A stretch of DNA of 64,000 nt from Anaerococcus sp. (GTDB taxonomy: Bacteria > Bacillota > Clostridia > Tissierellales > Peptoniphilaceae): assembly GCA_030532385.1 (NCBI GenBank), contig JAUNLG010000001.1, positions 1 to 64,000 on the forward strand, in the 5' to 3' direction. A program made the translations under genes and the position numbers. The notes below the pieces were generated by a model, which did no database searches, had not been told where the DNA came from, and saw nothing but the letters and a program-made list of their open reading frames with translations. Each line of letters opens with the position of its first letter. Position 1 is the first letter of the stretch. This document shows, in pieces, positions 12,449 to 26,525 of this stretch.

Positions 12449-13276
12449 CTAAGCTTCAAAAAACCTATACATTTTTTCAAAAACTTCTTTTCTTATCTTT
12501 AAATTTGTAAAGTCATGGTCAGCCCCTCTTATAAGCTCATAGCGACTATTAGAAAAGGCCTGGTTAAGCTTTACATTTGAATCATCAAAGACTAGCTCAT
12601 CAGCATCTCCCCTTAAGATTAGGACCTTGCCCTTATAGGCCCTAGCACTCTTATAGACATCCTTCTTAAAAAAATCTATAAGAAAATTCTTATGAAGCCT
12701 CAAGCCCCCTATATCAAGATCTTCTATATCGCTTAGGACCTCTCTTATAGAAGGTTCATCTTCTGATTTAAGCTTTTCAAATTTTTCTAAAAATAAACTT
12801 TGGGCCATAACCTTTAGGTAATCCCTATTGTTCATATCACTTGCAGGGGCAAGTAGGCACATCTTCTTTGCCTTAGTCTTTGAACCTATAAGGCTTGCTA
12901 TAACCCCTCCTAGGGAATGACCTAGTATATAAATCCTTTCCTTATCAACAAAAGATTTGATTTTAGTAAAGTCATAGACCATCATGGCATCTTCTTCTTC
13001 CCTAGAAACTGTCATATCATAAAAGGACCCATCGGATTCTCCAGATCCTTCAAAGTCAAACCTCACACAGATATAGCCCCTATCTGTCAGGTACTTAGCA
13101 TTTTGGCTTCTAAAAAAACTTCTCCCATTCCTATCTCCTCCAAAGCCATGGTAGAAGATTACTGCAGGATATTTTTTGCTAGTATCAAAGTCATCTGGGG
13201 TATTGATAACTCCCCTTAAAAGACTCCCATTCTTTTTGCTTATGCTTTGGTAAATATAGTCCATCTTATAAGTCAT
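12449..13276 (-). CDS. Alpha/beta hydrolase (dienelactone hydrolase / peptidase S9-like)
   Basis: This is a predicted cytoplasmic serine hydrolase of unknown substrate. The 275-residue protein shows the oxyanion segment FYHGFGGDRNG near residue 43, the nucleophile elbow GHSLGG (Ser near residue 122), an acid after the strand VLILRGDADELV, and a C-terminal His in GADHDF, completing a catalytic triad. Length and motifs match small esterases or acyl-peptidase-like enzymes. It overlaps the upstream FAD oxidoreductase gene by 11 bases from ATG 13276. A second in-frame ATG at 13264, just after that gene's stop, is an alternative start. Confidence 0.83.
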   Translation of the reverse strand: MTYKMDYIYQSISKKNGSLLRGVINTPDDFDTSKKYPAVIFYHGFGGDRNGRSFFRSQNAKYLTDRGYICVRFDFEGSGESDGSFYDMTVSREEEDAMMVYDFTKIKSFVDKERIYILGHSLGGVIASLIGSKTKAKKMCLLAPASDMNNRDYLKVMAQSLFLEKFEKLKSEDEPSIREVLSDIEDLDIGGLRLHKNFLIDFFKKDVYKSARAYKGKVLILRGDADELVFDDSNVKLNQAFSNSRYELIRGADHDFTNLKIRKEVFEKMYRFFEA

Positions 13277-14639
13277 TTAGGATTCTTGCCATCTTAACCC
13301 CTGAAGCTGAGGCTTGGGATAGGGAGTGGGTTACTCCTGACCCATCTCCTAGGCAGTAGAGTCTCTTCTTGCTAGTCTCAAAATTCTCATCTACATCTAC
13401 TACAGAGTTATAGAATTTAACCTCTATACCATAAAGTAGGGTATCGTCATTGGCCATACCTGGAGCTATCTTATCAAGTTGGTAGATCATCTCAATTATG
13501 TCATCTAATTGCCTTTTTGGCATAACTAAGGATAAGTCTCCAGCTGTAGCATTTAAGCTTGGCTTAGTGAAAGATTTTTTCATCCTTCTTTCTGATGACC
13601 TACGTCCCTTAATTAGATCACCAAATCTTTGCATAAGAACTCCCCCACCTAGCATGTTGGATAACCTTGCTATAGATTCTCCATATTCATTAGAATCCTC
13701 AAAGGGTTCTGTAAACCTATTTGTTACAAGAAGGGCAAAGTTTGTATTATTTGATTGAAGTTTAGGGTCTGTAAATGAGTGACCATTTACAGTAAGGATA
13801 CCATTGGTATTTTCTGTTACAACATGGCCATATGGGTTCATACAAAAAGTCCTTACCACATCGTTATATTGCTTGGTTTGATACATAATCTTTGCCTCAT
13901 ATACATCATCAGTTATATGCTTAAAGACTTCTGCAGGCACTTCTACACGAACTCCTATATCAACCCTATTTTTCTTAAGACCTACATCAAATTTATCGCA
14001 AACTTCTCCTATCCACTTAGATCCAGACCTACCTGCTGCAAGGACTAGGTCTTTTGCCTTATAGACTTCTTTGTCAGTATGGATTAGGTAAGACCCATCT
14101 TCATAGTCTACATCCTTTACTAGGGTATTAAACTCAAAGTCTATGGTATCTTTTACATAATCATAGATCTTTTGTAAAATAACCTTGTTCCTATCAGTAC
14201 CAAAGTGGCGGACCTTAGCCCCCAACAAGTGAAGGTCATACCTTAGGCACTTAGTCTTAAGGTCGTTCTTGTCAGTTGAATAAAGGTCTAAGTCATCTCC
14301 CCCATCAAAATCCATAAGAACATCATCTACATACTCCATAAGCTCCATAGCCTTATCTTCTCCTATGTATTGGTGAAGATCTCCTCCAAAGTTTGTAGTT
14401 ATGTTATACTTACCATCAGATAAGGTCCCAGCCCCTCCAAAACCATACATGATATTGCAAGGCTTGCATCCTATACAATGGTCTACTCTTCCGGTAGATA
14501 TAGGACATACCCTATTTTCTACCTTTCTTCCAGCATCTATGATAAGAACCTTCTTATCAGTCTGTAACTTTGTCAACTCATAAGCAAGAAAGGCTCCACT
14601 TGCTCCTGCTCCTACAACAACAACATCATAGTTTTTCAT
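13266..14639 (-). CDS. FAD-dependent oxidoreductase (COG2509-like)
   Basis: The substrate is unknown. The 457-residue flavoprotein starts with a dinucleotide-binding GxGxxG motif (VVVGAGASGAFLAYEL), followed by a cysteine-containing segment near residues 46-62 (CPISTGRVDHCIGCKPC) and a GGAGTLSDGK motif, all typical of the uncharacterised FAD-dependent dehydrogenases in COG2509. A C-terminal GDGSGVTHS segment closes the FAD site. I place the start at the ATG at 14639, 8 bases after AAGGAG; a TTG immediately before it is the only other candidate. It forms a two-gene unit with the hydrolase. Confidence 0.83.
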   Translation of the reverse strand: MKNYDVVVVGAGASGAFLAYELTKLQTDKKVLIIDAGRKVENRVCPISTGRVDHCIGCKPCNIMYGFGGAGTLSDGKYNITTNFGGDLHQYIGEDKAMELMEYVDDVLMDFDGGDDLDLYSTDKNDLKTKCLRYDLHLLGAKVRHFGTDRNKVILQKIYDYVKDTIDFEFNTLVKDVDYEDGSYLIHTDKEVYKAKDLVLAAGRSGSKWIGEVCDKFDVGLKKNRVDIGVRVEVPAEVFKHITDDVYEAKIMYQTKQYNDVVRTFCMNPYGHVVTENTNGILTVNGHSFTDPKLQSNNTNFALLVTNRFTEPFEDSNEYGESIARLSNMLGGGVLMQRFGDLIKGRRSSERRMKKSFTKPSLNATAGDLSLVMPKRQLDDIIEMIYQLDKIAPGMANDDTLLYGIEVKFYNSVVDVDENFETSKKRLYCLGDGSGVTHSLSQASASGVKMARILNDL

Positions 14640-14715
14640 CAAAAATACTCCTTTACATGATTAGCCTGTTATATTATACAAGTTTTGTGTCTATAATGAA
14701 ACTATTATTTATTTT

Positions 14716-14745
14716 TTAACAATCTTGTGCTAAAATTAGTATAAC
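14716..14745 (+). promoter_or_regulatory. Candidate promoter of azlCD
   Basis: TTAACA (14716-14721) is separated by 18 bases from TATAAC (14740-14745), about 17 bases before the azlC start. An AAGGAG ribosome site follows at 14752-14757. The assignment is by sequence pattern only. Confidence 0.45.
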
Positions 14746-14762
14746 ATTTATAAGGAGCTAAT

Positions 14763-15446
14763 ATGAAAGAAGCATTTAAAAAAGCATTTCCCTATACAAT
14801 TCCAGTTATAATAGGATATATCTTCCTAGGCTTTGCCTTTGGAATTATGGTAAGTCAAGCAGGTTATAAGGCCTTTATGGCCCCGCTTTTGTCTATGACA
14901 GTCTATGCTGGGAGCATGCAATTTGTCCTAATCCCCCTACTTAAATCAAATATTAGCCTTCTAGCCATAGCCATCCTTACCCTATCGGTAAACTTTAGGA
15001 TGATGTTTTATGGCCTATCCTTGATTAAGGAATTTAAGAATTCTAGGTCTAAGTTTCTCTTTATCCTTACCTTATCAGATGAGACCTTTGCCCTAGATAC
15101 TTCGATTAAGGCTCCTAAGGATATAAATAAGAGTGACTTCTTCCTAGCCATTGGCCTAATCAACTACTTTGTCTGGGCCATAGCCTCCCTAGGAGGAGCC
15201 TTGATTGGGGATTTAATTAGCTTTAATAGCCAAGGATTGGATTTTGTCCTAACAGCTCTTTTTATAGTCTTGTTGGTTGAACAATTTTTTGCCACAAGAA
15301 ACCATAGGCCTTTGGCCATAGGACTTGTTGTATCAAGCCTATCTTTAATGTTTTTTGGTAAGGATAAGTTTATGATACCAGCCCTTTTATTAATTATCTT
15401 ATCCCTAATTGGACTTAGGGGAAAGGTTGAGGATTATAATGAGTAA
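14763..15446 (+). CDS. azlC: Branched-chain amino acid exporter, AzlC family
   Basis: AzlC is the large subunit of the two-component AzlCD exporter (LIV-E family), which exports branched-chain amino acids or analogues. The 227-residue protein has six to seven hydrophobic helices and the conserved N-terminal pattern PVIIGYIFLGFAFGIM, followed by the YAGSMQFVLIPLL segment and VNFRMMFYGLS. Its last codons overlap the small partner gene by 8 bases, so both are co-translated. It has its own promoter-like region and an AAGGAG site. Confidence 0.9.
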   Translation: MKEAFKKAFPYTIPVIIGYIFLGFAFGIMVSQAGYKAFMAPLLSMTVYAGSMQFVLIPLLKSNISLLAIAILTLSVNFRMMFYGLSLIKEFKNSRSKFLFILTLSDETFALDTSIKAPKDINKSDFFLAIGLINYFVWAIASLGGALIGDLISFNSQGLDFVLTALFIVLLVEQFFATRNHRPLAIGLVVSSLSLMFFGKDKFMIPALLLIILSLIGLRGKVEDYNE

Positions 15447-15759
15447 GACTTTTTTAATAATTGCAGTAAGTACCCTTACAACTTTTATGATAAGGGCCAT
15501 CCCCTTTATATTTTTTTCAAAAAGAGACCTTCCCAATATAATAACCTACTTTGGTAGGTACCTTCCCTTTGCCCTCATGCCCTTGCTTGTAGTCTTTGCC
15601 CTAAAAGAAGTAGATCCTTTTACCTACCCTTATGGCCTAGCTGAACTTTTAGCCTGCCTGCTTGTAGTTATCCTTCATGTAAGGTATAAGAAATTATCCT
15701 TAAGCATAGGAGGAGGAACCCTTTTTTATATGTTCTTAGTACAGATAGTATTTGCTTAA
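15439..15759 (+). CDS. azlD: Branched-chain amino acid exporter small subunit, AzlD family
   Basis: This 106-residue, four-helix membrane protein is the partner of AzlC. Recognisable features are the N-terminal TTFMIRAIPFI segment and the LPFALMPLLVVFAL helix. I take the ATG at 15439 (overlapping the end of azlC in the arrangement ATGAGTAA) rather than the earlier in-frame codon at 15409, because it gives the usual length (about 105 residues) and keeps the normal coupled overlap. Confidence 0.87.
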   Translation: MSKTFLIIAVSTLTTFMIRAIPFIFFSKRDLPNIITYFGRYLPFALMPLLVVFALKEVDPFTYPYGLAELLACLLVVILHVRYKKLSLSIGGGTLFYMFLVQIVFA

Positions 15760-15798
15760 ATTTAGGGTAAAATTAAAGGTAATTAAGGGAGATTATAA

Positions 15799-17538
15799 AT
15801 GAATAAGGAAATATCAATATCAAACAACAAGGCCATTTTAAACTTCTCTAAGGCCTTTTTTTCAAACTCAGATGACTTATTAAGAAGTAAGGGCTATTAT
15901 GAAGTTTTAAGGTCCTTTGTCAAATTTCATAAGGACAATTCCACTAGAATCTACTCCTACTTAGAAAAATTCTTTAGGTCAAGTGACCTAGACCAATTAG
16001 CAAAAGAATTAAGGGATATAAGTAAGATTCTTACAGTAATGAGCCTTGAAGAAATAAGCGAGAAAATAAATAAGTACCACAAGCTAGATGAACAAGAACA
16101 AGCCCTCTTTAGGATAGTCGAAGATATGTATGACTATTGGAGAAAGCTTGAAAGATATTCAATTATTGAGAAAAATTCTGACAATAGGGGGCTTGAGGTG
16201 GAAAACTTCCTTGGATCAAATGTTAGGTTTAAGGAAATGATCCTTGATATATATAGGAAAATTGAAGTATCAATAACAGGCTTTCCTCCAAAAGTCTTTA
16301 GGCAAGTTCCTGCTGGTGTCAATTCTTCAATCATTGTGAGAAAATCACAAATAAAATATCCTACTTACCTAAGCTGGCTAAATGAGATTCCCTTTATAAG
16401 CAAGGTAATGATTGAAACCCCCTATATAACCTACACTAAGTCTAATAAGAGAGATGGGTTCTTTAGGGAAGTTTTTGAAAACCCCCTAAAAAACCTTAGA
16501 CTTAAGACAGATGAATTCTTATGCTATCCTGCAAAAATAGCTGATAATTTAATCTATGTCTACTTTCACATAGACTATATAACCCATGGTATTTCAGCAT
16601 CAAACCTCTTTGAACTAGCAGATGAAGAGGAAGTTATAAATACAAAACCAGATGGGATCTACATCTTTGGGGTGAAAAATGAAAAAGACCTGGATGTTTT
16701 TTATGAAGATAAGGAAAATGACCTCCTCATAGGTTATTGTAACTATGCTGATAAGAAAGATTATTTTGGCTATCTTAAGAAAATGTGCCTAACCTTAAAT
16801 AATATAATATCCATGAAAAAAGGCTATCTGCCAATCCATGGAGCAGGTGTTAATGTAGTCTTACAAAATGGAAAAAGTGCAAATATAGTAATTCTTGGCG
16901 ACTCAGGGGCAGGTAAGAGTGAATCAATAGAAGCCTTTAGGTCCCTAGCCAAAGAATATATAAGGGATATGATAGTAATCTTTGATGATATGGGATCCTT
17001 TAGGATTAAAGATGGAGAAGTCTTAGCCTATGGAACAGAAATAGGAGCCTTTGTAAGGTTAGATGACCTAGATAGCGGCTATGCCTTTAAACAAATAGAT
17101 AGGTCTGTCTTTATGAATCCAGATAAGATAAACGCAAGATTAATCATGCCTGTAGCAGACCATAAGGATATAATGGCAGGCTATAAGGTAGACTTCTTCC
17201 TTTATGCCAACAACTACGATAAACTAGGTTCTGATGATAAGTCAATAGAAATTTTTGACAGTAAAGATCAAGCAATCAAAACCTTCAAAAAAGGAGCTAG
17301 GATGGCTAAGGGAACTACTACAGAAGAGGGCCTAGTAGAATCCTACTTCGCCAACCCCTTTGGCCCTTACCAAAAACAAGAAACTTGCGATAAACTAATA
17401 GATAAATACTTTAGCAAACTTTTCGAGCAAGATATAAAAGTTGGAACTATTAGAACCCAACTTGCTATAGATAATATGGAAAGTGAAGGACCAAAAAAAT
17501 CAGCTAGAGAACTCTTTGAAATTATAAAAGAACTATAG
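15799..17538 (+). CDS. HPr kinase / PEP carboxykinase-like P-loop protein
   Basis: The 579-residue protein has an N-terminal helical half without a recognised domain and a C-terminal nucleotide-binding domain. The P-loop GDSGAGKSE (Gly367 to Glu375, with Lys373-Ser374) resembles HPr kinase (GxSGxGKSE) more than PEPCK. FDDMGSF (Asp396-Asp397) fits the acidic metal-binding position of that superfamily. Further on, GTTTEEGLVESYFANPFGP and GTIRTQLAI look like the C-terminal part of ATP-dependent PEPCK. The protein is therefore a divergent member of the HprK/PEPCK fold; whether it is a kinase, a decarboxylase or neither is unknown. It sits 39 bases after azlD and ends at a strong hairpin. Confidence 0.6.
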   Translation: MNKEISISNNKAILNFSKAFFSNSDDLLRSKGYYEVLRSFVKFHKDNSTRIYSYLEKFFRSSDLDQLAKELRDISKILTVMSLEEISEKINKYHKLDEQEQALFRIVEDMYDYWRKLERYSIIEKNSDNRGLEVENFLGSNVRFKEMILDIYRKIEVSITGFPPKVFRQVPAGVNSSIIVRKSQIKYPTYLSWLNEIPFISKVMIETPYITYTKSNKRDGFFREVFENPLKNLRLKTDEFLCYPAKIADNLIYVYFHIDYITHGISASNLFELADEEEVINTKPDGIYIFGVKNEKDLDVFYEDKENDLLIGYCNYADKKDYFGYLKKMCLTLNNIISMKKGYLPIHGAGVNVVLQNGKSANIVILGDSGAGKSESIEAFRSLAKEYIRDMIVIFDDMGSFRIKDGEVLAYGTEIGAFVRLDDLDSGYAFKQIDRSVFMNPDKINARLIMPVADHKDIMAGYKVDFFLYANNYDKLGSDDKSIEIFDSKDQAIKTFKKGARMAKGTTTEEGLVESYFANPFGPYQKQETCDKLIDKYFSKLFEQDIKVGTIRTQLAIDNMESEGPKKSARELFEIIKEL

Positions 17539-17540
17539 AA

Positions 17541-17578
17541 TTAGGAGCCTATGGATTATAAATTCCATAGGCTCCTAA
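17541..17578. terminator. Long hairpin terminator between convergent genes
   Basis: A perfect 15-bp stem (17541-17555 with 17564-17578) has an 8-base loop and lies between the end of the HprK-like gene and the convergent bacteriocin ABC genes. The flanking T-runs are short on both sides, so efficiency is uncertain. Confidence 0.7.
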
Positions 17579-17606
17579 AATTTGCCTACTTATAAAAACT
17601 AGGGTT

Positions 17607-18239
17607 TTATTTTAAACGAACAATTCTCTGACAACGACTTGCACAATACTTATCATGAGTTACTATGATTATGGTCTTTCCAGACTCATTGATCTCTTCT
17701 AAAAGATCCATCACATATTTTGCATTCCCCTCATCTAAAGATCCTGTCGGCTCATCAGCAAGTATTAGGCTAGATGGTTTTATAATGGCTCTTGCTAGAG
17801 ATATTCTCTGTTGCTCACCGCCTGATAAGGAGGCTACTTTCTTATCCAAAAATCCCTCCATATTAACCCTTCTAAGAGCATCCTTCATAATTTCTTCTTT
17901 CTCACTCTTATTTTTACTAATATATTTTAAAGCAAGTTTAAGATTATCTCTTACACTCTCATCTTCTATTAGTGCAAAATCTTGAAATAGATAAGAAATT
18001 TCATCTCTTATTATTCGTTGACTTTCCTTGCTATTAACTTTAACATTTTTATAGTCCTTAAAAAAATAATCTCCACTATAATCTCCTTCAATAAAACCAA
18101 TTATGTTTAAAAGAGTGGATTTGCCAGACCCACTCTCTCCTACAATAGCTAGCATCTGACCACCATCAACTTTTAAATCAAAATTATCAAAAATCACTTT
18201 CTCACCAAAGGATTTAGTAAGATTTCTTATACGAATCAT
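17607..18239 (-). CDS. Bacteriocin ABC transporter ATP-binding protein
   Basis: This 210-residue ATPase belongs to the MacB/LolD-like class used by bacteriocin export or immunity systems. It has Walker A ([12 protein letters not shown] near residue 34), signature SLSGGEQQRISLAR, Walker B (LILADEPTGSLDE) and the H-loop (IIVTHDKYCA). It is about the minimum length for a stand-alone nucleotide-binding subunit. Its ATG starts one base after the stop of the permease gene, so the two are translated as a pair. Context (bacteriocin, permease, ATPase in this order) matches lactococcin 972-type operons. Confidence 0.87.
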   Translation of the reverse strand: MIRIRNLTKSFGEKVIFDNFDLKVDGGQMLAIVGESGSGKSTLLNIIGFIEGDYSGDYFFKDYKNVKVNSKESQRIIRDEISYLFQDFALIEDESVRDNLKLALKYISKNKSEKEEIMKDALRRVNMEGFLDKKVASLSGGEQQRISLARAIIKPSSLILADEPTGSLDEGNAKYVMDLLEEINESGKTIIIVTHDKYCASRCQRIVRLK

Positions 18240-18240
18240 T

Positions 18241-20274
18241 CTATACTCCCTTCAATTCATTTACCAAACTCTTCCTATCTTTAGCCCTAATAAAGGCAAA
18301 TATTAGGATAAAATCTATAACTGCATAGGCTAAGAATATCAATGCTACCAAGAAATTTCTACTTGTTAAATAAAGGCTAGCAAGGGATATAAGATCCACT
18401 GTCCCTACAAAAGCTATCAAACTCTTAAACCTATCAAAAAGCCTATATCCCATAAGTTTGCTTACATTTAAGAACCTATTTTTTGTCAAAAAATAGCCTT
18501 GTATCAAGACAAAACTAATAAAAAATGAAAGCAATGTAAGGATTATAAAGATACTGCTAGTCTTTGCTATAAGTAACCTATACTCATCTATAACTTCTTT
18601 CATGATTGAAGAAATACTTGAAAATTTAAGGTAATACTCTCCCTGGTAATCATCATAGACATCCTCGATTATTTGTCTATTTTCCTTAGTATTTTTAATC
18701 TTTAGTGGACTTTCTATACCTGTATTAAGTAAGAATAACTTATGCTTAAAATTCATATTATAATCATCTACAAGAGCAATAATAGGATCATTAACTATAG
18801 GTTTTTCTTCATTGTAGGTAATAGATTGTATATCTTTATCATAATAGATGATATTAATAGGTGTATTTGAAACTTCATCCATATCAATATTATTAGCATC
18901 CTTTATGTAGGTTAGATAATACCTAAATGCCTTATCTAAATTCTTATCATAAGACATGGTTTTTGGAATATAGATGGTGTTTTTCTTATCACTTATCTTA
19001 AGTCCTAACTTTTTAAGATAGGTATCATTGACATTTAAAATCTCATAAGTCTTTGATTGATCATAAGTATCATCATACACAAAAGGAGTGTAAGTATCGT
19101 AGTAAATGTAATTTAGATCATCTATCCTAGCATTAAGTTTTTTGTAGGCATGATATGGCAATTTTACAAGATCAGTAGATTTCATACTAAGCCTGCTCGC
19201 TGATTCCCTACCATATTCATTGGCCAGGTAGTCTTGACTATTTCCCACATAAAACTTAGCTTGATTGAGACTATCAAAGGTAAGATTAAAGCTTAGAGAT
19301 AGAAGATAAAGAGAGGCTACAGCAAATACCGAAATGGCTAGTTTGAAGGTGAAGTTTAAAGCATTGACCCATCTTAGTGAGGTAAACTTCTTTATCATCT
19401 TACTTATAGTAATATTATCGATTATATTATAGGAAAAAAACTCGATTATTAGATAGGATATTATAATTAAACTTTGACTTAAAATCAAAAATCTCATAAA
19501 TCCACTAGGTATATACGAATTAATCGCATATATACCAAGGTCAAATACAAGACTTGTTATAACAATAGTAAGCAAGCCTTCTAGTAGATATGATTTCAGA
19601 ATATCAAATGAAGAGATACCCAAAAGTTTTTCAACACCGATCTTTCTCATTTCAAATAGCGGTCTATAAATGGAGCTAATAACCAAAAGTACATAGGCTA
19701 TAAAAAGTCCGATAGCAGAGAAAATCGATGCATTATTTATGTAGGTAAAACCTGTTTCATAAGGCTTACTTAACAACTCTTCTTTGCTAATAGAAAGAAA
19801 TTGACTTAATTCTTCCAATAAAGAATCCAGGTTTTCTCTATTTTCGCCTATTATCGAATACTCACCACTGATAGAATCTCCAGATTCTTCAAAATAATCC
19901 CCCATACCAACTAGTCTTATTTTTCCTATATTCATAAAAGAAGGAAAATTCTTTGGGCTACTATCAAGGTCAAATTTTCCATCAAATTTATCATAAGGAA
20001 AACTTTCCTCATCTACCACCAAGGCCTTATAATATATGCTATCCTTGTTGTTAGCTTTTAAAAAAGAAAGTCCATATTTATCTGATAAATAATAAAGCTC
20101 TCCTATAAAATCATCCTGATCTATCCTTGCATCTCTTATATAAAATTCTAGTGATTGCTCACTTTTACCAAAATTTCTAAGCCTCTGGTACTCTCTTACC
20201 ATAAAAATATTAGTCGCCAAAATCCCAAAAAGAATAGTTATAGCAGCTAATATCACCTTGTTCATTCTCTTCAT
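18241..20274 (-). CDS. Bacteriocin-associated integral membrane protein (DUF1430-like permease)
   Basis: The 677-residue membrane protein has one N-terminal helix, an extracellular domain, three helices around residues 180-290, another helix near 310-330, a second large extracellular domain, and three C-terminal helices. This layout matches FtsX/MacB-type permeases with duplicated extracellular modules and the DUF1430 'bacteriocin-associated integral membrane protein' family (putative immunity or export component). It follows the bacteriocin gene by 59 bases and is coupled to the ATPase gene. The start is the first ATG behind AAGGAGAAG. Confidence 0.8.
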   Translation of the reverse strand: MKRMNKVILAAITILFGILATNIFMVREYQRLRNFGKSEQSLEFYIRDARIDQDDFIGELYYLSDKYGLSFLKANNKDSIYYKALVVDEESFPYDKFDGKFDLDSSPKNFPSFMNIGKIRLVGMGDYFEESGDSISGEYSIIGENRENLDSLLEELSQFLSISKEELLSKPYETGFTYINNASIFSAIGLFIAYVLLVISSIYRPLFEMRKIGVEKLLGISSFDILKSYLLEGLLTIVITSLVFDLGIYAINSYIPSGFMRFLILSQSLIIISYLIIEFFSYNIIDNITISKMIKKFTSLRWVNALNFTFKLAISVFAVASLYLLSLSFNLTFDSLNQAKFYVGNSQDYLANEYGRESASRLSMKSTDLVKLPYHAYKKLNARIDDLNYIYYDTYTPFVYDDTYDQSKTYEILNVNDTYLKKLGLKISDKKNTIYIPKTMSYDKNLDKAFRYYLTYIKDANNIDMDEVSNTPINIIYYDKDIQSITYNEEKPIVNDPIIALVDDYNMNFKHKLFLLNTGIESPLKIKNTKENRQIIEDVYDDYQGEYYLKFSSISSIMKEVIDEYRLLIAKTSSIFIILTLLSFFISFVLIQGYFLTKNRFLNVSKLMGYRLFDRFKSLIAFVGTVDLISLASLYLTSRNFLVALIFLAYAVIDFILIFAFIRAKDRKSLVNELKGV

Positions 20275-20285
20275 AACTTCTCCTT

Positions 20286-20318
20286 AAAATAGAAAACTTC
20301 TACAAAAGTAGAAGCTTT
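20286..20318 (-). terminator. Putative attenuating hairpin between bacteriocin and permease genes
   Basis: A 7-bp perfect stem (20297-20303 with 20308-20314, AAAA loop on the plus strand) is followed on the minus strand by TTTTCTATTTT. It sits between the bacteriocin stop and the permease start. Partial termination here would give more bacteriocin mRNA than permease/ATPase mRNA. Confidence 0.6.
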
Positions 20319-20333
20319 CTATTATTCTAAATA

Positions 20334-20627
20334 TTAATCAAAACCGTAGTAATATGACAAGCCAATAGGTGGTACTTTGATATATTTCGCATTTGACCAT
20401 TCTCCAGCCCCACCATAATCTTTATCAGAATTTCCATTATCATCATTTACAACTGTGGAATGATGGTAACTTGAAGAGTGGAAATAATCAGAATATCCAA
20501 AGCCCACACTTGGACCGTATCTCCAAATTCCATTACTAGGATACTTAGTAACTGCTAAGGCAACAGTATTAGCAAAGAACATTAACGTAAGTACTGATAG
20601 TATGCCATATTTTCTTGATTTTTTCAT
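20334..20627 (-). CDS. Lactococcin 972 family bacteriocin precursor
   Basis: This is a 97-residue secreted peptide precursor. Residues 1-25 form a Sec signal peptide (basic start, hydrophobic core, cleavage after ALA), leaving a mature peptide of about 72 residues. The mature part follows the lactococcin 972 pattern: a GIWRYG start, a Tyr/His-rich YSDYFHSSSYHHSTVVN core, a KDYGGAGEWSNAK segment and a C terminus with consecutive tyrosines (YYYGF). No cysteines are present, as in lactococcin 972. In that bacteriocin the target is lipid II at the septum; the same target here is inference. Good GGAGAT ribosome site 5 bases upstream. Confidence 0.88.
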   Translation of the reverse strand: MKKSRKYGILSVLTLMFFANTVALAVTKYPSNGIWRYGPSVGFGYSDYFHSSSYHHSTVVNDDNGNSDKDYGGAGEWSNAKYIKVPPIGLSYYYGFD

Positions 20628-20691
20628 TAGTATCTCCTTTCATTACACAGAATAATTTACCATCATTATTCTCTAACTTTTTTACACTTTA

Positions 20692-20720
20692 AGTATAACA
20701 TAGGTCCATGATTATAGCAA
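20692..20720 (-). promoter_or_regulatory. Candidate promoter of the bacteriocin operon
   Basis: On the minus strand TTGCTA (20715-20720) is followed after 17 bases by TATACT (20692-20697), giving a leader of roughly 60 bases before the bacteriocin ATG. A second TATAAT (20711-20716) lies just upstream with no good -35 match. The rest of 20628-20842 is AT-rich and shows no gene. Confidence 0.5.
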
Positions 20721-20842
20721 ACGTTTTTATATTATGGTGTATAGAAGCTTATATACAAGATAATATAACATAATTTAGTAATCTAAAAACACAAAATCAT
20801 TTTCATCTTAATTTGTACCTACTCATGTATATAATTAAGCTT

Positions 20843-20925
20843 AAAAGCCTAGTCATAAATAAACTGACCCTCAAAGTTGTACTAAAAATCAACATGAAAA
20901 GGTCAGTTCACAAGGCTAGTCTTTT
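20843..20925. other. Nested inverted-repeat element downstream of pepD
   Basis: Two nested inverted repeats occupy this stretch: an outer 12-base pair of arms (20843-20854 with 20914-20925, one mismatch and one G-T pair) and a perfect inner 8-bp stem (20862-20869 with 20901-20908), with a short GTTG/CAAC pairing inside. It lies 11 bases after the pepD stop and may act as its terminator. The size and nesting are larger than an ordinary terminator. The left inner arm and following bases faintly recall insertion sequence ends, but no transposase is present. Confidence 0.5.
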
Positions 20926-20935
20926 AATTTTTTCA

Positions 20936-22354
20936 TTATTTAATTATCTTTAACATTTCTACAAGGAACTTATAGTTATTTGCTACAGATTCTATATTAA
21001 CCTTCTCTTCTGGAGAGTGGGCTCCTTTTATTTCTGGTCCAAAGGAGATCATTTCTACATGTGGGATTTCTTTTTTGAAAAGTCCACATTCTAGGCCACC
21101 GTGGGTGGTTGATACTTCCATATCACTTCCAACAAGCTCTTTCCAAACTTTATTTGAAAGATCAATTAGGGCTGTTTCTTCTCTTTGCCAACCTGAATAC
21201 TCAGATTTTACTTCAAAACTTCCCCCAAACCTTCTTACAAGCTCCATATCAATCCTAGCCCTATCAAATTTAGCTGAGTCAATCTCTGACCTAATCATTA
21301 CGTTAAACATGATAGAATCTTCTTTATCTTCTAGGATACCAAGGTTTGAAGATGTTACTATATTATTCTCAAATTTCTTAAATAGTCCATCTGGCATTAG
21401 GTAAAGTATATCGATAATATCCTTTGACTTATCAGCTGTTATAACTTTTCCATCAAAGTTAGGATTTTCATCAATTTCTATTACTCCTTTAGGGTCTGTA
21501 TCCTTATATTCATTAAGGATCTCTTCTTTCCTACTTTCGATAAGTTTAATTGCCTCATTTTTATCCTTAACAGCAACCACTGCCTTAGCACTTGTAGGTA
21601 TTGCATTTCTCTTAACTCCACCTACTAGACTTGCAATTTGTAGGCCATCTATGTCATGAAGGAGTCTAGCCATAGCCTTTATGGCATTTAACCTAAACTT
21701 ATCTATCTCCATACCTGAATGGCCACCGGTAAAGCCTTTTAATTCAAGACCTAGTAAATCGCCATTCCTATCTTCATATTCCTTATCAAAGTTTACTTCA
21801 AGATCAAGGCCTCCTGCACAGCCGATGGTAAGGACTCCCTCTTCTTCTGAGTCTATATTTATAAGGTATTTGCTCTTAAGATTTGATAAATCTAGGGCAT
21901 TGGCTCCTACCATAGAGGTTTCTTCTCCTGTTGTAATGATGGCTTCTATTGGACCATGGTCAAGATTTTCATCATCGAGAACTGCCATAATAAAAGCAAC
22001 TCCCATTCCATCATCAGCACCAAGGGTTGTTCCATCTGCTGTTAGCCAACCATCTTCTACCATTAATTTTATTGGATCTTTAGCAAAATCATGGTCACTA
22101 TCATCTTCCTTTACTGCAACCATATCCATATGGGCTTGTAGGGCGATACTTGGCCTATCTTCAAAGCCCTCTGATGCTTTCTTTCTTATAATTACATTTA
22201 AGGCTTCATCTTGACTTACTTCAAGATTTCTATCCTTGGCAAATTTTACTAAAAAGTTTGATATTTCTTCTTCATTTCCTGATTCTCTTGGTATTTGACT
22301 TATGTCATAAAAGTGAGAAAATACTGCTTTAGGTTCTAAATTTTTAATTTCCAT
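20936..22354 (-). CDS. pepD: Aminoacyl-histidine dipeptidase (PepD, M20 family)
   Basis: This cytoplasmic zinc dipeptidase cleaves Xaa-His (carnosine-type) and other dipeptides. The 472-residue protein has the M20 metal-binding motifs: ALQAHMDMVAVK with the first His and Asp near residue 80, DGTTLGADDGMGVA near 115, the catalytic ITTGEETSMVGA near 145, and the C-terminal HGGLECG and GAHSPEE motifs. I chose the ATG at 22354 because AGGAGG stands 5 bases upstream; the frame is open further to 22384, but that would run deeper into hemZ and has no ribosome site. It overlaps the end of the hemZ-like gene by 11 bases. Confidence 0.92.
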   Translation of the reverse strand: MEIKNLEPKAVFSHFYDISQIPRESGNEEEISNFLVKFAKDRNLEVSQDEALNVIIRKKASEGFEDRPSIALQAHMDMVAVKEDDSDHDFAKDPIKLMVEDGWLTADGTTLGADDGMGVAFIMAVLDDENLDHGPIEAIITTGEETSMVGANALDLSNLKSKYLINIDSEEEGVLTIGCAGGLDLEVNFDKEYEDRNGDLLGLELKGFTGGHSGMEIDKFRLNAIKAMARLLHDIDGLQIASLVGGVKRNAIPTSAKAVVAVKDKNEAIKLIESRKEEILNEYKDTDPKGVIEIDENPNFDGKVITADKSKDIIDILYLMPDGLFKKFENNIVTSSNLGILEDKEDSIMFNVMIRSEIDSAKFDRARIDMELVRRFGGSFEVKSEYSGWQREETALIDLSNKVWKELVGSDMEVSTTHGGLECGLFKKEIPHVEMISFGPEIKGAHSPEEKVNIESVANNYKFLVEMLKIIK

Positions 22355-23657
22355 AATTCCTCCTAATATTTTCATTATACTCATTTATTAGTTTATTTTT
22401 AGCTCTTATTAGCTCATCTAAATTTTCATAATAATCTCTTAGATTCCTAGCATTCCTAAATTTCTTGCCATTTATAAGCTTAGAATTGGCATTCATCCCA
22501 AGACCTATAAGAGATTCCTTCTCTTCATTTACTATGATATTATATCTTTGGCTGGTGTCATTTCTTTGATAGCCTATGTTTTCAAGATTTGATACTTGTT
22601 TTTTCTGCCTATATAGATAATAGGGCTTGTAGGAATGCTCTTTTATAAAATCTTCTATATCCCTACTTATAAGCTCACTTTCATTCTTATCTGCCTTCTT
22701 ATGTTTTTCAAAATACTTTGATCCAACCTTCATGGCTAGGACGTGAAAGGTTATATTATCAGGTAAGAGCTTTTCTAAAAGCCTAAAATTTTTTGAAAAA
22801 AGCCTCCTATCTTCTCCCAAAAGTCCCACAATAAAATCCATATTTACTATAAATCCTAGGTCCTTGGCCATCTCATAGATTTTAAGAAAGTTATCTAGGT
22901 CATAGGCTCTTCCTGCTTTTTTGGCTATCTCTTGATTAAAGCTTTGAGGATTTAGGGAAATTCTTCCAACCTTCCTTTCTTTCATTATCTTAAGTTTAGA
23001 ATAATCTAGGGTATCTTCCCTGCCAGCTTCTAGGGTAAATTCCTTAAAATTAAAGCGATTTATAAGCTCATCAAGAAGTCTTGCAAGATCCTTATTATCT
23101 AAATAAGATGGGGTTCCTCCTCCTATATAAATGCTATCAAGATCTTTGTCTAAATCTAGGCCCTTAAGCTCTTTTATAAGCCTATCTATGTATAGACTTC
23201 TATCATGCTTAGGGCCAATAAGGGTTGGATAGGAGCAATAAGAGCACCTTTGTGGGCAAAAGGGAATATTAATATAAAGGTTAAAAGAAGATTTATCAAA
23301 ATATAATTTATCTTGCTCCTCTTTAACTCTTTTAAGCAGATCAATCTTTTGATCACTTACCCTATAGGTCTTTTTAATCTCTTCTAAGCTTATTTTCTTT
23401 AAAAGCTTTGATGGCTTAGAGCCTGTAAGATAGCCCCAAGGAGCCTTATAGGATAGGTCTTTGGATAAAAGATCATATAGGCTAGCTTTTAGCGTATCTT
23501 TCTTATAAGAAATAAGATTTCCTCCATAAGAAATCTTTCCATCACCTACATAAAGGTCAGCTTCTTTACTAAATTTAAGCTCATCATGGTCAAAAAATAT
23601 ATTTAATATATCAAAAACTTGTTTTCTATCTCTTTGATCTTTAACATAAAATTTCAT
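22344..23657 (-). CDS. hemZ: Radical SAM coproporphyrinogen dehydrogenase-like protein (HemZ family)
   Basis: This radical SAM enzyme is related to oxygen-independent coproporphyrinogen III oxidase. The 437-residue protein has an N-terminal region typical of HemZ, then the SAM-binding cysteine motif CPQRCSYCSY near residue 135, the YIGGGTPSYL segment, and an extended HemN-like C-terminal part. HemZ proteins are common in Clostridia that lack most haem synthesis genes, so the real substrate is uncertain. The ATG at 23657 has only a weak ribosome site. Upstream a terminator separates it from the CpXC gene; downstream it overlaps pepD. Confidence 0.8.
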   Translation of the reverse strand: MKFYVKDQRDRKQVFDILNIFFDHDELKFSKEADLYVGDGKISYGGNLISYKKDTLKASLYDLLSKDLSYKAPWGYLTGSKPSKLLKKISLEEIKKTYRVSDQKIDLLKRVKEEQDKLYFDKSSFNLYINIPFCPQRCSYCSYPTLIGPKHDRSLYIDRLIKELKGLDLDKDLDSIYIGGGTPSYLDNKDLARLLDELINRFNFKEFTLEAGREDTLDYSKLKIMKERKVGRISLNPQSFNQEIAKKAGRAYDLDNFLKIYEMAKDLGFIVNMDFIVGLLGEDRRLFSKNFRLLEKLLPDNITFHVLAMKVGSKYFEKHKKADKNESELISRDIEDFIKEHSYKPYYLYRQKKQVSNLENIGYQRNDTSQRYNIIVNEEKESLIGLGMNANSKLINGKKFRNARNLRDYYENLDELIRAKNKLINEYNENIRRNYGN

Positions 23658-23683
23658 ATCTTAACTATACTTTAAATAAAATT

Positions 23684-23709
23684 AGCAGGAAACCCTAGGG
23701 TAACCTGCT
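23684..23709 (-). terminator. Terminator after the CpXC-domain gene
   Basis: AGCAGG (23684-23689) pairs with CCTGCT (23704-23709) around an inner CCCTAGGG palindrome. The minus strand continues with AATTTTATTT. Moderate strength by appearance. Confidence 0.6.
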
Positions 23710-23713
23710 TAAT

Positions 23714-24358
23714 CTAGCCTTCAATATTTTTTAAAAATTCATAGGCCCAATTTCTATCTATCATTTGACTTTCTTCTTCTTTAAAATAATCTTCATACTG
23801 GTTTAAAATCCTAGTATAGACATCTTTCAAAAATCCAAGACTCATCACTTGGCCATCCTTGGTAAGGATTTTAAAGTTGCCATCATCTTCATAGGTAAAG
23901 CTTTTAACATCATCATAGGATAAGGCAAAGTCATCTGACTCTAAGAGTATGTATTTCATAAGCTCTATGGCCTTATCTGATAGGAAGGATTCAAAAATTA
24001 TAATCTTTTCCTTAAGTTCATCCAAATCCTTAGTCATCCTCATCACAAACTTCTTTGCCTCACCCTTTCTAGTCTTATCCAAAAGTTTAAGAGATGATAG
24101 GAAGGCTAGCCTATATTGAAGGTCCACAAACTTAGGGTCATTTATTATCATAAATTTTATATCATCATCTGTATAGGCAAAATTATAATTTAACCTAAAG
24201 ATATGACCACAATCAGGGCAAATTATACTAGCAAACTTATCTTCTAGTATATCCCTTCTTTCTAGGGAATCTGCAAAAACTGCTGTATTTAGCTTTGTTT
24301 CAAAAGATTCTTCACATGATGGACACTTAACTTTAAATTGATTTATTCTTTTTTGCAT
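23714..24358 (-). CDS. CpXC-domain protein
   Basis: Function unknown. The 214-residue protein begins with a zinc-ribbon-like CPSCEESFETKL (the CPxC signature) and a second pair CPDCGHIF about 40 residues later, the four cysteines expected to bind zinc in CpXC proteins. The rest is mainly helical and acidic. I chose the ATG at 24358 because AGGAGAGAT precedes it; an earlier in-frame ATG at 24376 has no such site. It lies 48 bases after the ECF S-component gene and may be cotranscribed with it. Confidence 0.72.
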   Translation of the reverse strand: MQKRINQFKVKCPSCEESFETKLNTAVFADSLERRDILEDKFASIICPDCGHIFRLNYNFAYTDDDIKFMIINDPKFVDLQYRLAFLSSLKLLDKTRKGEAKKFVMRMTKDLDELKEKIIIFESFLSDKAIELMKYILLESDDFALSYDDVKSFTYEDDGNFKILTKDGQVMSLGFLKDVYTRILNQYEDYFKEEESQMIDRNWAYEFLKNIEG

Positions 24359-24406
24359 AATATCTCTCCTATCCACTTTCTAACTTTCTACCCCTAATAA
24401 AAGAAC

Positions 24407-24946
24407 TTACTCAAAATTAATTCTCTTAAGTAAAGGAAGGGCCAAAATTGATGCAATGATCACTGAAATTAAGGCATTAAACAAGGAAACTCCGGCCTTA
24501 GGAATAAGCTCTGCTAGGATAGCCTGGCTAGTAAAGTCCATCACAAACCTATTTTTAATGTAGGTTTGTAAAAGATAAAGGAAAACATAGGTTATTTGCC
24601 CTAAAATATTAGCAATAACCAAGCGCTTTTTACTAAAAGATCCCCTTTCAAAAATAAGACCTGCCACAAAGGCCATGGCAAATTTTGTTATAAAAGTAAT
24701 AGGAGCTGCTGTAAAATACACAGGATCAAGAAGGTCAAATATAGCTGATCCTAGACCTGCACTTAGGCCACCTAGACCCTTGCCTAGAGTAATCCCTGCC
24801 AAAAGACAAAATACATTTCCCAAATGAAACCTCGTTTGACCGAAGGGAGTTACAATTGGAATTTGAAAAAACCTTGAAAAAATATAAACTAGGGCTGTAA
24901 AAAATGCCCCATAGACTAAACTTTTTGTAGTAAACTTACCTTTCAT
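24407..24946 (-). CDS. ECF transporter S component (substrate unknown)
   Basis: This is a 179-residue membrane protein with about six helices. The N-terminal TKSLVYGAFFTALVYIFS helix with small alanine/glycine residues is the EcfT-contacting helix typical of S components, and the GNVFCLLAGITLGKGLGGLSAGLGSAIFDLL segment resembles the riboflavin-like ECF S family (PF07155-type). The transported vitamin cannot be read from sequence. It would use the EcfA1-EcfA2-EcfT module at 7298-9760. The start has a strong AAGGAGG site. No riboswitch is visible in the 65-base divergent region upstream. Confidence 0.78.
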   Translation of the reverse strand: MKGKFTTKSLVYGAFFTALVYIFSRFFQIPIVTPFGQTRFHLGNVFCLLAGITLGKGLGGLSAGLGSAIFDLLDPVYFTAAPITFITKFAMAFVAGLIFERGSFSKKRLVIANILGQITYVFLYLLQTYIKNRFVMDFTSQAILAELIPKAGVSLFNALISVIIASILALPLLKRINFE

Positions 24947-25011
24947 ACTACCTCCTTAGCTTCTCCTAGTATATCACAAATTATATAGTATGATAAAATC
25001 GAGGTGATAAA

Positions 25012-25662
25012 ATGAGTGAAAAATTAGGTCCAATACATTATCAAATGTATGAAAAGATCAAATTTCAAGATGATATAAGTAAATTTTTGATGGATGATAA
25101 TACAAGTGAGATTGACAAAGACCTTGAACCTGTTTCAAGGAAAGACTTGGCAGAAATCATTGACCAAGACAATGTCCATGGATATCTTGCTTCAAAGATA
25201 GATGTGGTTGAAAATAGACTTGCTAAGGCAATAAAACTTTCTTCTGATCCAAAAAAGAAGATGTATGAGCTTGGGGTAAGTAAGGCAGAAGATTTTTCTT
25301 CCTACCAAGATCTTTTTAATAAATTAAATTCTTATCTATTAGATGGGATGCCTTGTGATAATGCCCTTTCAGCAGGTATCGACCCAGAGGGTAATCTTTT
25401 ATTGATAACCAATGATAACCTTCATAGCAAATACCAAAAGGCCTATGTAAATCCAGATGATTCTTTAAATGCAAGTTGTGGTGGAGGAGACCATGACCAC
25501 CATCATTCCTTTGACCTAAAAGAGCTTGATGGAGAAAATCTAAAAGAAGAAAATTCAACCTACCATGATTATAGGTATGAATTTATCAAGGGCTTTTTAA
25601 GCAAGAGTTCCTATGGTGTTGACCTAGTAAATGGGATAAATTACAAAATTTATCAAAAATAA
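25012..25662 (+). CDS. Uncharacterised protein with Cys-Gly-His-rich metal-binding-like motif
   Basis: I do not recognise this 216-residue cytoplasmic protein. It begins with a LGPIHYQMYEKIKFQDDI segment, followed by mixed alpha/beta sequence, and carries two cysteines: Cys115 in MPCDNAL and Cys156 in a striking CGGGDHDHHH run (156-165), which could bind a transition metal. Metal binding is inference. It is a single gene with a GAGGTGAT ribosome site and its own terminator, transcribed divergently from the ECF S component gene. Confidence 0.6.
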   Translation: MSEKLGPIHYQMYEKIKFQDDISKFLMDDNTSEIDKDLEPVSRKDLAEIIDQDNVHGYLASKIDVVENRLAKAIKLSSDPKKKMYELGVSKAEDFSSYQDLFNKLNSYLLDGMPCDNALSAGIDPEGNLLLITNDNLHSKYQKAYVNPDDSLNASCGGGDHDHHHSFDLKELDGENLKEENSTYHDYRYEFIKGFLSKSSYGVDLVNGINYKIYQK

Positions 25663-25697
25663 AAAAATATCCTGGATTAAAATCCAGGATTTTTTTA
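25661..25697. terminator. Bidirectional terminator between convergent genes
   Basis: ATCCTGGATT (25669-25678) pairs with AATCCAGGAT (25681-25690), flanked by a run of A on the left and T on the right, so it can serve both the plus-strand unknown gene and the minus-strand nucleoside hydrolase-like gene. Confidence 0.9.
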
Positions 25698-26525
25698 TTG
25701 GTAGCTATCTTTGATATAAGCTAAAAAGCTTTCTTCATTTACCCTTATTGCCAGGTAGTTTTTCTTTCTAGTATTTGACCTTTCAAGTTTTCCAAGTTCA
25801 TATTCCCTATCTACCTTAAAGGATCCTTCTTCATAGATAAAAGCCTCTGGGCTTTCTATTAGATATAGACTAAGACTTGCATTAAAGTTTCTTGCCTTAC
25901 TTTTGATAAGACCATCAATTATCTTTGCATTTTCCTTAGTTTTTATACCCTCTAGAAAGTCTCCTCCTATTTCCACTTGCCTTGATATATCCTTTGGTAT
26001 GATAAATAAGTCTATGGATGAATTTAGGATTATATCTATGGCTAGGGGGTCTTTGGCAAAGTTCTCTTCAATCTCTCCAAGGCTGCCCCCACTTATAAAG
26101 ATATGGGATATATAATCTTCTAGGTCAGGATATTTTTCTAAAGCTCCTCCTATATTAGTCAAAGGACCTGTAGTTAGGATATTTAGGGAGCCTGTATCTC
26201 TTGCAAGGTCATAAAGATTATCATAGACATCTACATCTTCTAAGTAATCTTTCTTAGGCTCATAGATTATCTCTCCCTTTTCTTTAAACTCTAAGGGCTC
26301 TTTTTTAAGATTATAAGACCTACCTTCTACAACAGGTAGGAATAGTCCATATACTTCTCCTAGTCCTAGGATATTTTCCCCAGCTTTCTTTTTATTCATA
26401 AAGCCTTGGTTAGTTGATATGCCAACTAACTCAAAGGCTTCTGACCTTAGGGCTAAATCAACCATAAGGGCCTCATCATAGGAGAAATTTGTATCTATAT
26501 ATAAAAATGGTTTTTCTTTTTCCAT
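25695..26525 (-). CDS. Degenerate nucleoside hydrolase-like protein, probably non-catalytic
   Basis: The 276-residue sequence follows the inosine/uridine-preferring nucleoside hydrolase fold: an N-terminal DTNFSYDEAL in the place of the calcium-binding DTDxGxDDA motif, then TGPLTNIGGAL, ISGGSLGE, and a C-terminal strand/helix VDREYELG..FLAYI. Key residues are changed: the second Asp of the DxD pair is Asn13 and the last Asp is Glu18, and the catalytic His-Asp-Pro segment that normally precedes LAVAYLI is replaced by NASLSLYLI. The fold assignment is good; loss of hydrolase activity is inferred. Single gene with terminator shared with its convergent neighbour. Confidence 0.75.
   Translation of the reverse strand: MEKEKPFLYIDTNFSYDEALMVDLALRSEAFELVGISTNQGFMNKKKAGENILGLGEVYGLFLPVVEGRSYNLKKEPLEFKEKGEIIYEPKKDYLEDVDVYDNLYDLARDTGSLNILTTGPLTNIGGALEKYPDLEDYISHIFISGGSLGEIEENFAKDPLAIDIILNSSIDLFIIPKDISRQVEIGGDFLEGIKTKENAKIIDGLIKSKARNFNASLSLYLIESPEAFIYEEGSFKVDREYELGKLERSNTRKKNYLAIRVNEESFLAYIKDSYQ

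Follow-up and report, generated by a model that had tools for sequence, protein, structure and literature searches.

The stretch of Anaerococcus sp. DNA analysed here (contig JAUNLG010000001.1, positions 1 to 64,000; hereafter the window, 64,000 nt in length) carries what we are confident is a complete bacteriocin operon of the lactococcin 972 type, with bacteriocin action and immunity through an ATP-binding cassette (ABC) complex inferred. The original prediction, made from the sequence alone, had outlined three open reading frames (ORFs) of 97, 677 and 210 residues encoding a precursor, a permease and an ATPase, and this layout was borne out: the three genes lie in that order on the minus strand (Table 1), a strand that the original prediction did not specify, all open and uninterrupted, with 59 nt between precursor and permease and 1 nt between permease and ATPase. 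By eye, a Shine-Dalgarno-like AAGGAG or GGGAG sequence is present ahead of each of them. The assignment to the lactococcin 972 (Lcn972) type follows from precursor scores above the cut-off of two hidden Markov models, from a sequence match to the solved chain of Lcn972, from the predicted fold and from a gene order that, as anticipated, matches the operon of the Lactococcus lactis plasmid pBL1.

The precursor scored 49.3 bits with TIGR01653 (cut-off 32.1; E 4.5e-13; model positions 1-96 of 97) and 43.4 bits with PF09683 (cut-off 22; E 5.2e-11), and reached only E 0.32 with the NCBIfam mediterrocin model. Sequence searches of the PDB matched 2lgn, the nuclear magnetic resonance chain of Lcn972 (E 9.3e-9), and 9hkj (E 0.0044), with no further match at E <= 10. 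The AlphaFold2 (AF2) model of the precursor, built on an alignment of 11 rows and with a mean predicted local distance difference test score (pLDDT) below 50 in two of five models, presented seven strands from residue 25 on and block-mean pLDDT values of 80-93 from residue 31. A fold search of the PDB with this model returned 2lgn first (E 4.7e-5; TM-score 0.83 by target length) and 9hkj second (E 1.8e-4), the latter known here from its PDB title, 'Formosin D', and its sequence alone; these were the only two matches at E <= 0.001. The data hence support membership of the precursor in the lactococcin 972 family.

The N-terminus of the precursor contains KKSRK followed by a hydrophobic stretch that peaks at residues 12-26 and includes Ala-Leu-Ala at 23-25, in agreement with the Sec signal peptide originally proposed. 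Judged by hydropathy and by eye, this Sec-type signal peptide would span about residues 1-25, with cleavage between ALA and VTKYP, and no double-glycine leader is present in the precursor sequence. The predicted mature part (cut after Ala25) comprises 72 residues (8.06 kDa) and, as claimed, is free of Cys (0) and rich in Tyr (10); the claimed enrichment in His is only mild (3).

The ATPase exceeded the cut-off of TIGR03608 (L_ocin_972_ABC; 273.5 bits versus 254.85), its sequence can be read with what we take to be the Walker and THD motifs, and the solved chains matching it include MJ0796, FtsE, PsdA, MacB, LolD and BceA. The DUF1430-like character of the permease was sustained by PF07242 (29.9 bits, cut-off 28.2; C-terminal residues 577-676). 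Its hydropathy profile outlines about eight hydrophobic segments, arranged as 1+3 and again 1+3 with two extracellular parts, and its N-terminal and C-terminal halves are related around residues 176-221 and the corresponding region close to the C-terminus (hhalign 91.6%, E 8e-7, 46 columns). The succession of one transmembrane segment, an extracellular domain and three transmembrane segments resembles FtsX/MacB units, and the permease layout is like two such units fused. A relation to MacB itself is unproven by both profile search and hhalign: the permease profile matched MacB in the PDB at E 0.32-0.94, with NADH dehydrogenase subunit M slightly better, and hhalign against MacB-like proteins gave 7.4% for the whole permease, 13.6% for its N-terminal half and 0.6% for its C-terminal half, none of them significant.

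Several observations weigh against this interpretation of the operon. Despite an E-value of 1.2e-36, the permease obtained 126.5 bits with TIGR01654, under the cut-off of 189.35, so this part of the proposed family check failed and the permease is best described as a divergent relative, a DUF1430 protein related to TIGR01654 and not filed there. Its AF2 model has a mean pLDDT of 44.7 and is unusable. The assembly is 82% complete, and distant regulators are possible outside the 11 neighbours scanned. In addition, the mature part is acidic, with a calculated pI of 5.8 versus 9.7 (basic) for Lcn972 treated alike, so target binding may differ from that of Lcn972. This acidity, together with a patchy presence in the genus (7 of 31 Anaerococcus genomes by PF09683, own included: G000, G011, G017, G020, G022, G027 and G029), would suit a diverged copy with a function other than bacteriocin, such as a secreted signal or a wall-remodelling protein, or a decaying locus. 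We consider such an outcome very improbable, since the three genes are all open, the core residues are kept (W35, Y37, G38, S46, Y48, H50, S52, H55, V59, G75 and S78 being among 15 columns invariant with four relatives) and the precursor, permease and ATPase are, respectively, 64, 47 and 67% identical over nearly full length to those of Anaerococcus nagyae DSM 101193 (NZ_JAGGLS010000010; G011), the nearest operon found.

The precursor would be exported by Sec, lose its signal peptide and fold into a small beta-sheet protein, and by homology with Lcn972, a lipid II binder devoid of modified residues (PMC8538875), the mature peptide would bind the lipid II of close relatives and block septal wall synthesis. 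The permease and the ATPase would form an ABC complex that shields the producer; removal of the peptide from the membrane or from lipid II is the likeliest mechanism, in preference to export of the precursor. Target clearing from lipid II has been proposed for BceAB, and our best guess, by analogy, is that the pump encoded in the window may operate in the same way. In L. lactis carrying the Lcn972 cluster, the minimum inhibitory concentration (MIC) is given as 800-1600 AU/ml versus 12.5 for the parent in four table rows, with columns as per the legend (PMC4055356). Lcn972 selection has also been linked to a Bce-like module, and in three Lcn972-resistant mutants the bacitracin MIC rose 8- and 4-fold in two and fell 2-fold in one (PMC7438565).

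The name of the TIGR03608 model, 'putative bacteriocin export ABC transporter', would instead make the ABC pair a dedicated bacteriocin exporter, with immunity encoded elsewhere. We regard this as improbable. The Sec-type signal and the lack of a double-glycine leader in the window precursor argue against export by the ABC pair, and streptococcin B is secreted whether or not ComAB is present, in a strain devoid of two other bacteriocin exporters, its authors favouring Sec (PMC11796350). Furthermore, permease-ATPase pairs for which no precursor was detected within 1.5 kb upstream (G053, G036, G029:C5), or preceded by a broken remnant (G082), fit immunity better, and together with the precursor features they favour immunity over export. 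The streptococcin B report describes the roles of the partner proteins (B and C) as unverified in any such locus (PMC11796350). Bacteriocin-less loci have been described in Streptococcus mitis, for which a defensive role was proposed and in which terminators were predicted by program (PMC11921387).

The gap between precursor and permease genes can fold into a strong hairpin, a perfect stem trailed by a U-rich stretch and positioned just ahead of the permease Shine-Dalgarno sequence. Its minimum free energy (MFE) is -20.2 kcal/mol, and none of 200 shuffles was as stable. Significant hairpins, equalled in stability by no more than one shuffle in 200, were detected in 17 of 22 precursor-permease gaps, including those of pBL1 Lcn972, Enterococcus casseliflavus and Lactobacillus amylovorus, and across the operons tested they are alike in place and varied in sequence. 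No significant hairpin was detected in the remaining five (G105b, G029, G071, L054 and L077), the L077 gap being 186 nt as annotated and possibly containing coding sequence. Outside this count stand L062, L063 and L065, for which no full precursor ORF was called, and the type-4 and type-5 gaps, except for an L050 gap that surfaced among the controls. The 22 rows are not independent, given that the hairpin-bearing Streptococcus rows represent two stem types and that G027 and G020 are identical; after kinship is considered, the set comes down to about ten distinct stems plus four groups in which no significant hairpin was detected.

Within the same loci, z-scores below -3 were observed in 6 of 8 precursor-permease gaps versus 8 of 31 other co-directional gaps (p 0.016). 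Addition of G105b, left out of this z-score comparison, changes the former to 6 of 9 (p 0.033), and moving as well the control L050 4815-4885, which is really a precursor-permease gap, yields 7 of 10 versus 7 of 30 (p 0.012); the phylum-wide TIGR01653 draw gave too few genomes for a comparison of this kind. The frequency of such z-scores in other co-directional gaps, and the five precursor-permease gaps in which a significant hairpin is missing, would be expected of a chance or generic intergenic hairpin of AT-rich genomes. This explanation appears rather unlikely in the face of the enrichment, which persists under both corrections, and of the recurrence of distinct stems across the family. 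Leaky termination or RNA processing in favour of the precursor mRNA is the likely role of the hairpin, which would probably keep the bacteriocin mRNA above the level of the pump mRNA. Lantibiotic operons also carry hairpins of this sort downstream of their structural genes, so the principle is an established one. The mRNA of an Lcn972-like ORF in Staphylococcus aureus figures among RNase III-bound RNAs and is commoner without RNase III (PMC3386247), which would fit processing, though it concerns the ORF itself.

A more comprehensive model can be put forward as a tentative possibility that we would not favour at present. In this model, the DUF1430 permease would consist of two fused FtsX-type units and, together with two copies of the ATPase, strip bound bacteriocin off lipid II; permease subclades would be matched to their own precursor types, the Anaerococcus-Enterococcus-Lactobacillus one combining a diverged permease with PPxG(L/M) precursor endings; and the hairpin, conserved in position and variable in sequence, would set the ratio of weapon to shield mRNA throughout the family.

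The distribution of the system among relatives is patchy. TIGR01653 identified precursors in 9 of 150 genomes and PF09683 in 10 (own included), and TIGR01654 was matched at E <= 0.001 in 37 of 150, with scores above its cut-off in only 7; in a phylum-wide draw, TIGR01653 precursors were present in 2 of 398 genomes (own included). Within Anaerococcus, PF09683 pointed to 12 precursor places, two of which (G022) may be parts of a single gene split by contig ends, versus six for TIGR01653, indicating that the standard precursor model undercounts in this genus. Conversely, PF09683 missed two precursors found with TIGR01653 (G071 and the second of G105). The precursor-permease-ATPase order is conserved in 8 of 9 precursor loci of relatives, the ninth (G022) stopping at a contig edge. 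A scan of genome contigs with the precursor as single query returned no match, and the same scan with a 5-row precursor alignment identified 13 loci; no precursor relatives were detected in viral contigs, nor in plasmids at E 1e-5.

A permease search at E 1e-8 returned only two plasmid records, from E. casseliflavus (NZ_CP068133) and L. amylovorus (NZ_CP104880). In an ATPase tree of 22 rows, from which L. amylovorus is absent, the window clusters with A. nagyae (100/97) and both are joined by the E. casseliflavus plasmid operon (95/94); a separate 12-row group (100/100) comprises Lcn972, the streptococci and the Anaerococcus G027 and G020 operons. Furthermore, a K-I/V-PPxG-L/M ending is common to the precursors of the window, A. 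nagyae, E. casseliflavus and L. amylovorus, and was not seen in the other precursors compared. On these sequence grounds, the window operon appears linked to the plasmid operons of E. casseliflavus and, through the permease, of L. amylovorus, and not to the other Anaerococcus types compared. The ATPase tree, the plasmid permease matches and the shared precursor ending together suggest that such operons entered Anaerococcus on more than one occasion.

The operon occupies a spot (17539-20935) that is variable in Anaerococcus, between genes encoding a 579-residue protein and an M20 peptidase. The spot was compared via these flanks, the peptidase being present in 30 and the 579-residue protein in 26 of the 31 genus genomes (E <= 1e-60, own included). 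In four congeners the two flanks are no more than 7 kb apart, and all four hold other cargo between them: a gene for a 483-residue protein in G026 and G022, and one for a 1424-residue protein in G006 and G018. In the remaining congeners the flanks are far apart, on separate contigs, or one of them was not found. Given the other genes at the same spot in four congeners, the simplest reading is that the operon was probably gained there. Base composition was considered and discarded, the GC difference (28.5-32% in 1-kb windows inside the operon versus about 31-37% around it) being too small for use.

Other loci of this kind were observed in Anaerococcus and its relatives. A longer precursor type of 123-147 residues, with a ...W-R-H-G-V-like core, is encoded at L050:4371-4814, L079:5865-6257 (minus strand), L080, L081, L018:18702-19073 and L082, in Anaerococcus G020, G011, G017, G029 and G022, and precedes a permease of 715-728 residues and an ATPase of 219-222 residues wherever the contig extends far enough. 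The three scanned (L050, L079 and L018) pass PF09683 and obtain 13-25 bits with TIGR01653 (cut-off 32.1), and A. nagyae carries both this type and that of the window. Signal-peptide-like ORFs of 99-100 residues at L088:2361-2663 (G004) and L051:606-905 (G022), located before DUF1430-like permeases of 737-739 residues and ATPases, presented no PF09683 hit and 16.5-17.7 bits with TIGR01653, and are possibly a further, undescribed precursor type. Helix-turn-helix (HTH) proteins of about 300 residues are encoded near several Lcn972-type operons of Anaerococcus (L050:3324-4220, L079-L081, L088:1241-2155, L014:8068-8985 and L015:8041-8967); HTH_3 was detected in all three of those scanned, a weak TPR in one and ComR_TPR in none. 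Their placement resembles the ComR-type control layout of streptococci and might reflect peptide-pheromone control; no such protein was found beside the window operon. Lastly, permease-ATPase pairs for which no precursor was detected within 1.5 kb upstream were located at L047 (G029:C5), L045 (G053) and L046 (G036), and a broken precursor remnant lies upstream of the permease at L048 (G082); these could be shield-only loci, as described for streptococci.

The features of the window operon are compiled in Table 1. Directly upstream of the promoter-like site, an inverted repeat (20727-20768) with 21-nt arms, no spacer and 86% complementarity was observed, which is a possible operator. Promoter-like sites in the region showed no clear excess, with 22 found versus 20.2 expected from shuffles. 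The inverted repeat behind the ATPase gene is likely a two-way terminator.

Table 1. Features of the lactococcin 972-type operon and its immediate surroundings in the window.
Feature	Position	Strand	Evidence
Lactococcin 972-family precursor, 97 aa	20334..20627	-	PF09683, TIGR01653, 2lgn by sequence and fold
DUF1430-type ABC permease, 677 aa, putative immunity permease	18241..20274	-	PF07242, hydropathy, hhalign of halves
ABC ATPase, 210 aa, putative bacteriocin export/immunity subfamily	17607..18239	-	TIGR03608
Precursor-permease gap (59 nt), 16-bp perfect hairpin, candidate leaky terminator or mRNA-processing hairpin	20275..20333	-	MFE and shuffles
Promoter-like site TTGCTA-17-TATACT, TG before -10	20692..20720	-	weak evidence
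Perfect 15-bp inverted repeat, loop 8, between ATPase gene and converging 15799-17538 gene	17541..17578	.	

Upstream, on the same strand as the operon, lies the gene for the M20 peptidase (482 residues; 20936-22384; PF01546), and the gene for the 579-residue protein (15799-17538), for which no family above cut-off was identified with Pfam and NCBIfam-type models, converges on the operon. Pfam scans of the 11 neighbour proteins (12449-17538 and 20936-26525), one of which had no hit, identified among others AzlC, AzlD, a radical SAM protein, a CpXC protein and an ECF transporter component, and no sensor kinase, response regulator or other regulator.

The original suggestion that a member of this family in an anaerobe would extend its range is out of date: a 2014 mining study had already catalogued anaerobes with Lcn972-like genes (PMC4289311), and activity was demonstrated in 2025 for mediterrocin of Mediterraneibacter gnavus (PMC12345188). 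The literature search for lactococcin 972 with Anaerococcus or Peptoniphilus returned no report of such an operon in this group, and the accessible parts of the 2014 mining study (PMC4289311) name no Anaerococcus operon. The operon hence adds a member to an established family, in a little-studied genus, and is not a new kind of weapon; the precursor-permease hairpin and the Anaerococcus precursors missed by TIGR01653 are possibly less known. The presence of several clearly different operons and of precursor-less pump pairs in one genus provides a natural test of the matching between permease and peptide, and a hairpin common in place to most of the operons examined is a cheap, testable point.

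Compared with known systems, the window operon shares with the Lcn972 operon of pBL1 (NC_004955) the gene order, a Sec-type precursor with a Cys-free mature part and a beta fold, genes for a permease and an ABC ATPase, and a significant hairpin in the corresponding gap. Identity amounts to 35% for the precursor and 43% for the ATPase, and the permease gives only a marginal BLAST match (25% over 130 residues, E 0.003); the window operon encodes an acidic mature part and sits on a 238-kb contig, whereas Lcn972 is basic and plasmid-borne. The closely related operon of A. nagyae is placed elsewhere, with a CDP-alcohol phosphatidyltransferase gene (PF01066) on one side and recA (PF00154) on the other. 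The permeases of E. casseliflavus and L. amylovorus, annotated as 'hypothetical protein' beside an annotated Lcn972-family bacteriocin, are 28.7% and 25.0% identical over 100% and 98% of the window permease, and the E. casseliflavus precursor is 36% identical over 85 residues; unlike that of the window, both operons are plasmid-borne. Among the 13 loci, streptococcin B (scbABC) and related streptococcal loci encode the nearest precursors outside the genus (38-48% identity over matched parts), with the same gene order as judged by ORF sizes and no BLAST match between the streptococcal permease and that of the window at 1e-3. The streptococcal L054 presents a ComR-type regulator upstream (PF18710) and BceAB-type modules a linked two-component system, in contrast to the 11 neighbours scanned in the window. 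Mediterrocin, an active Lcn972-family bacteriocin from a gut bacterium, is likewise accompanied by DUF1430 and ABC proteins (PMC12345188).

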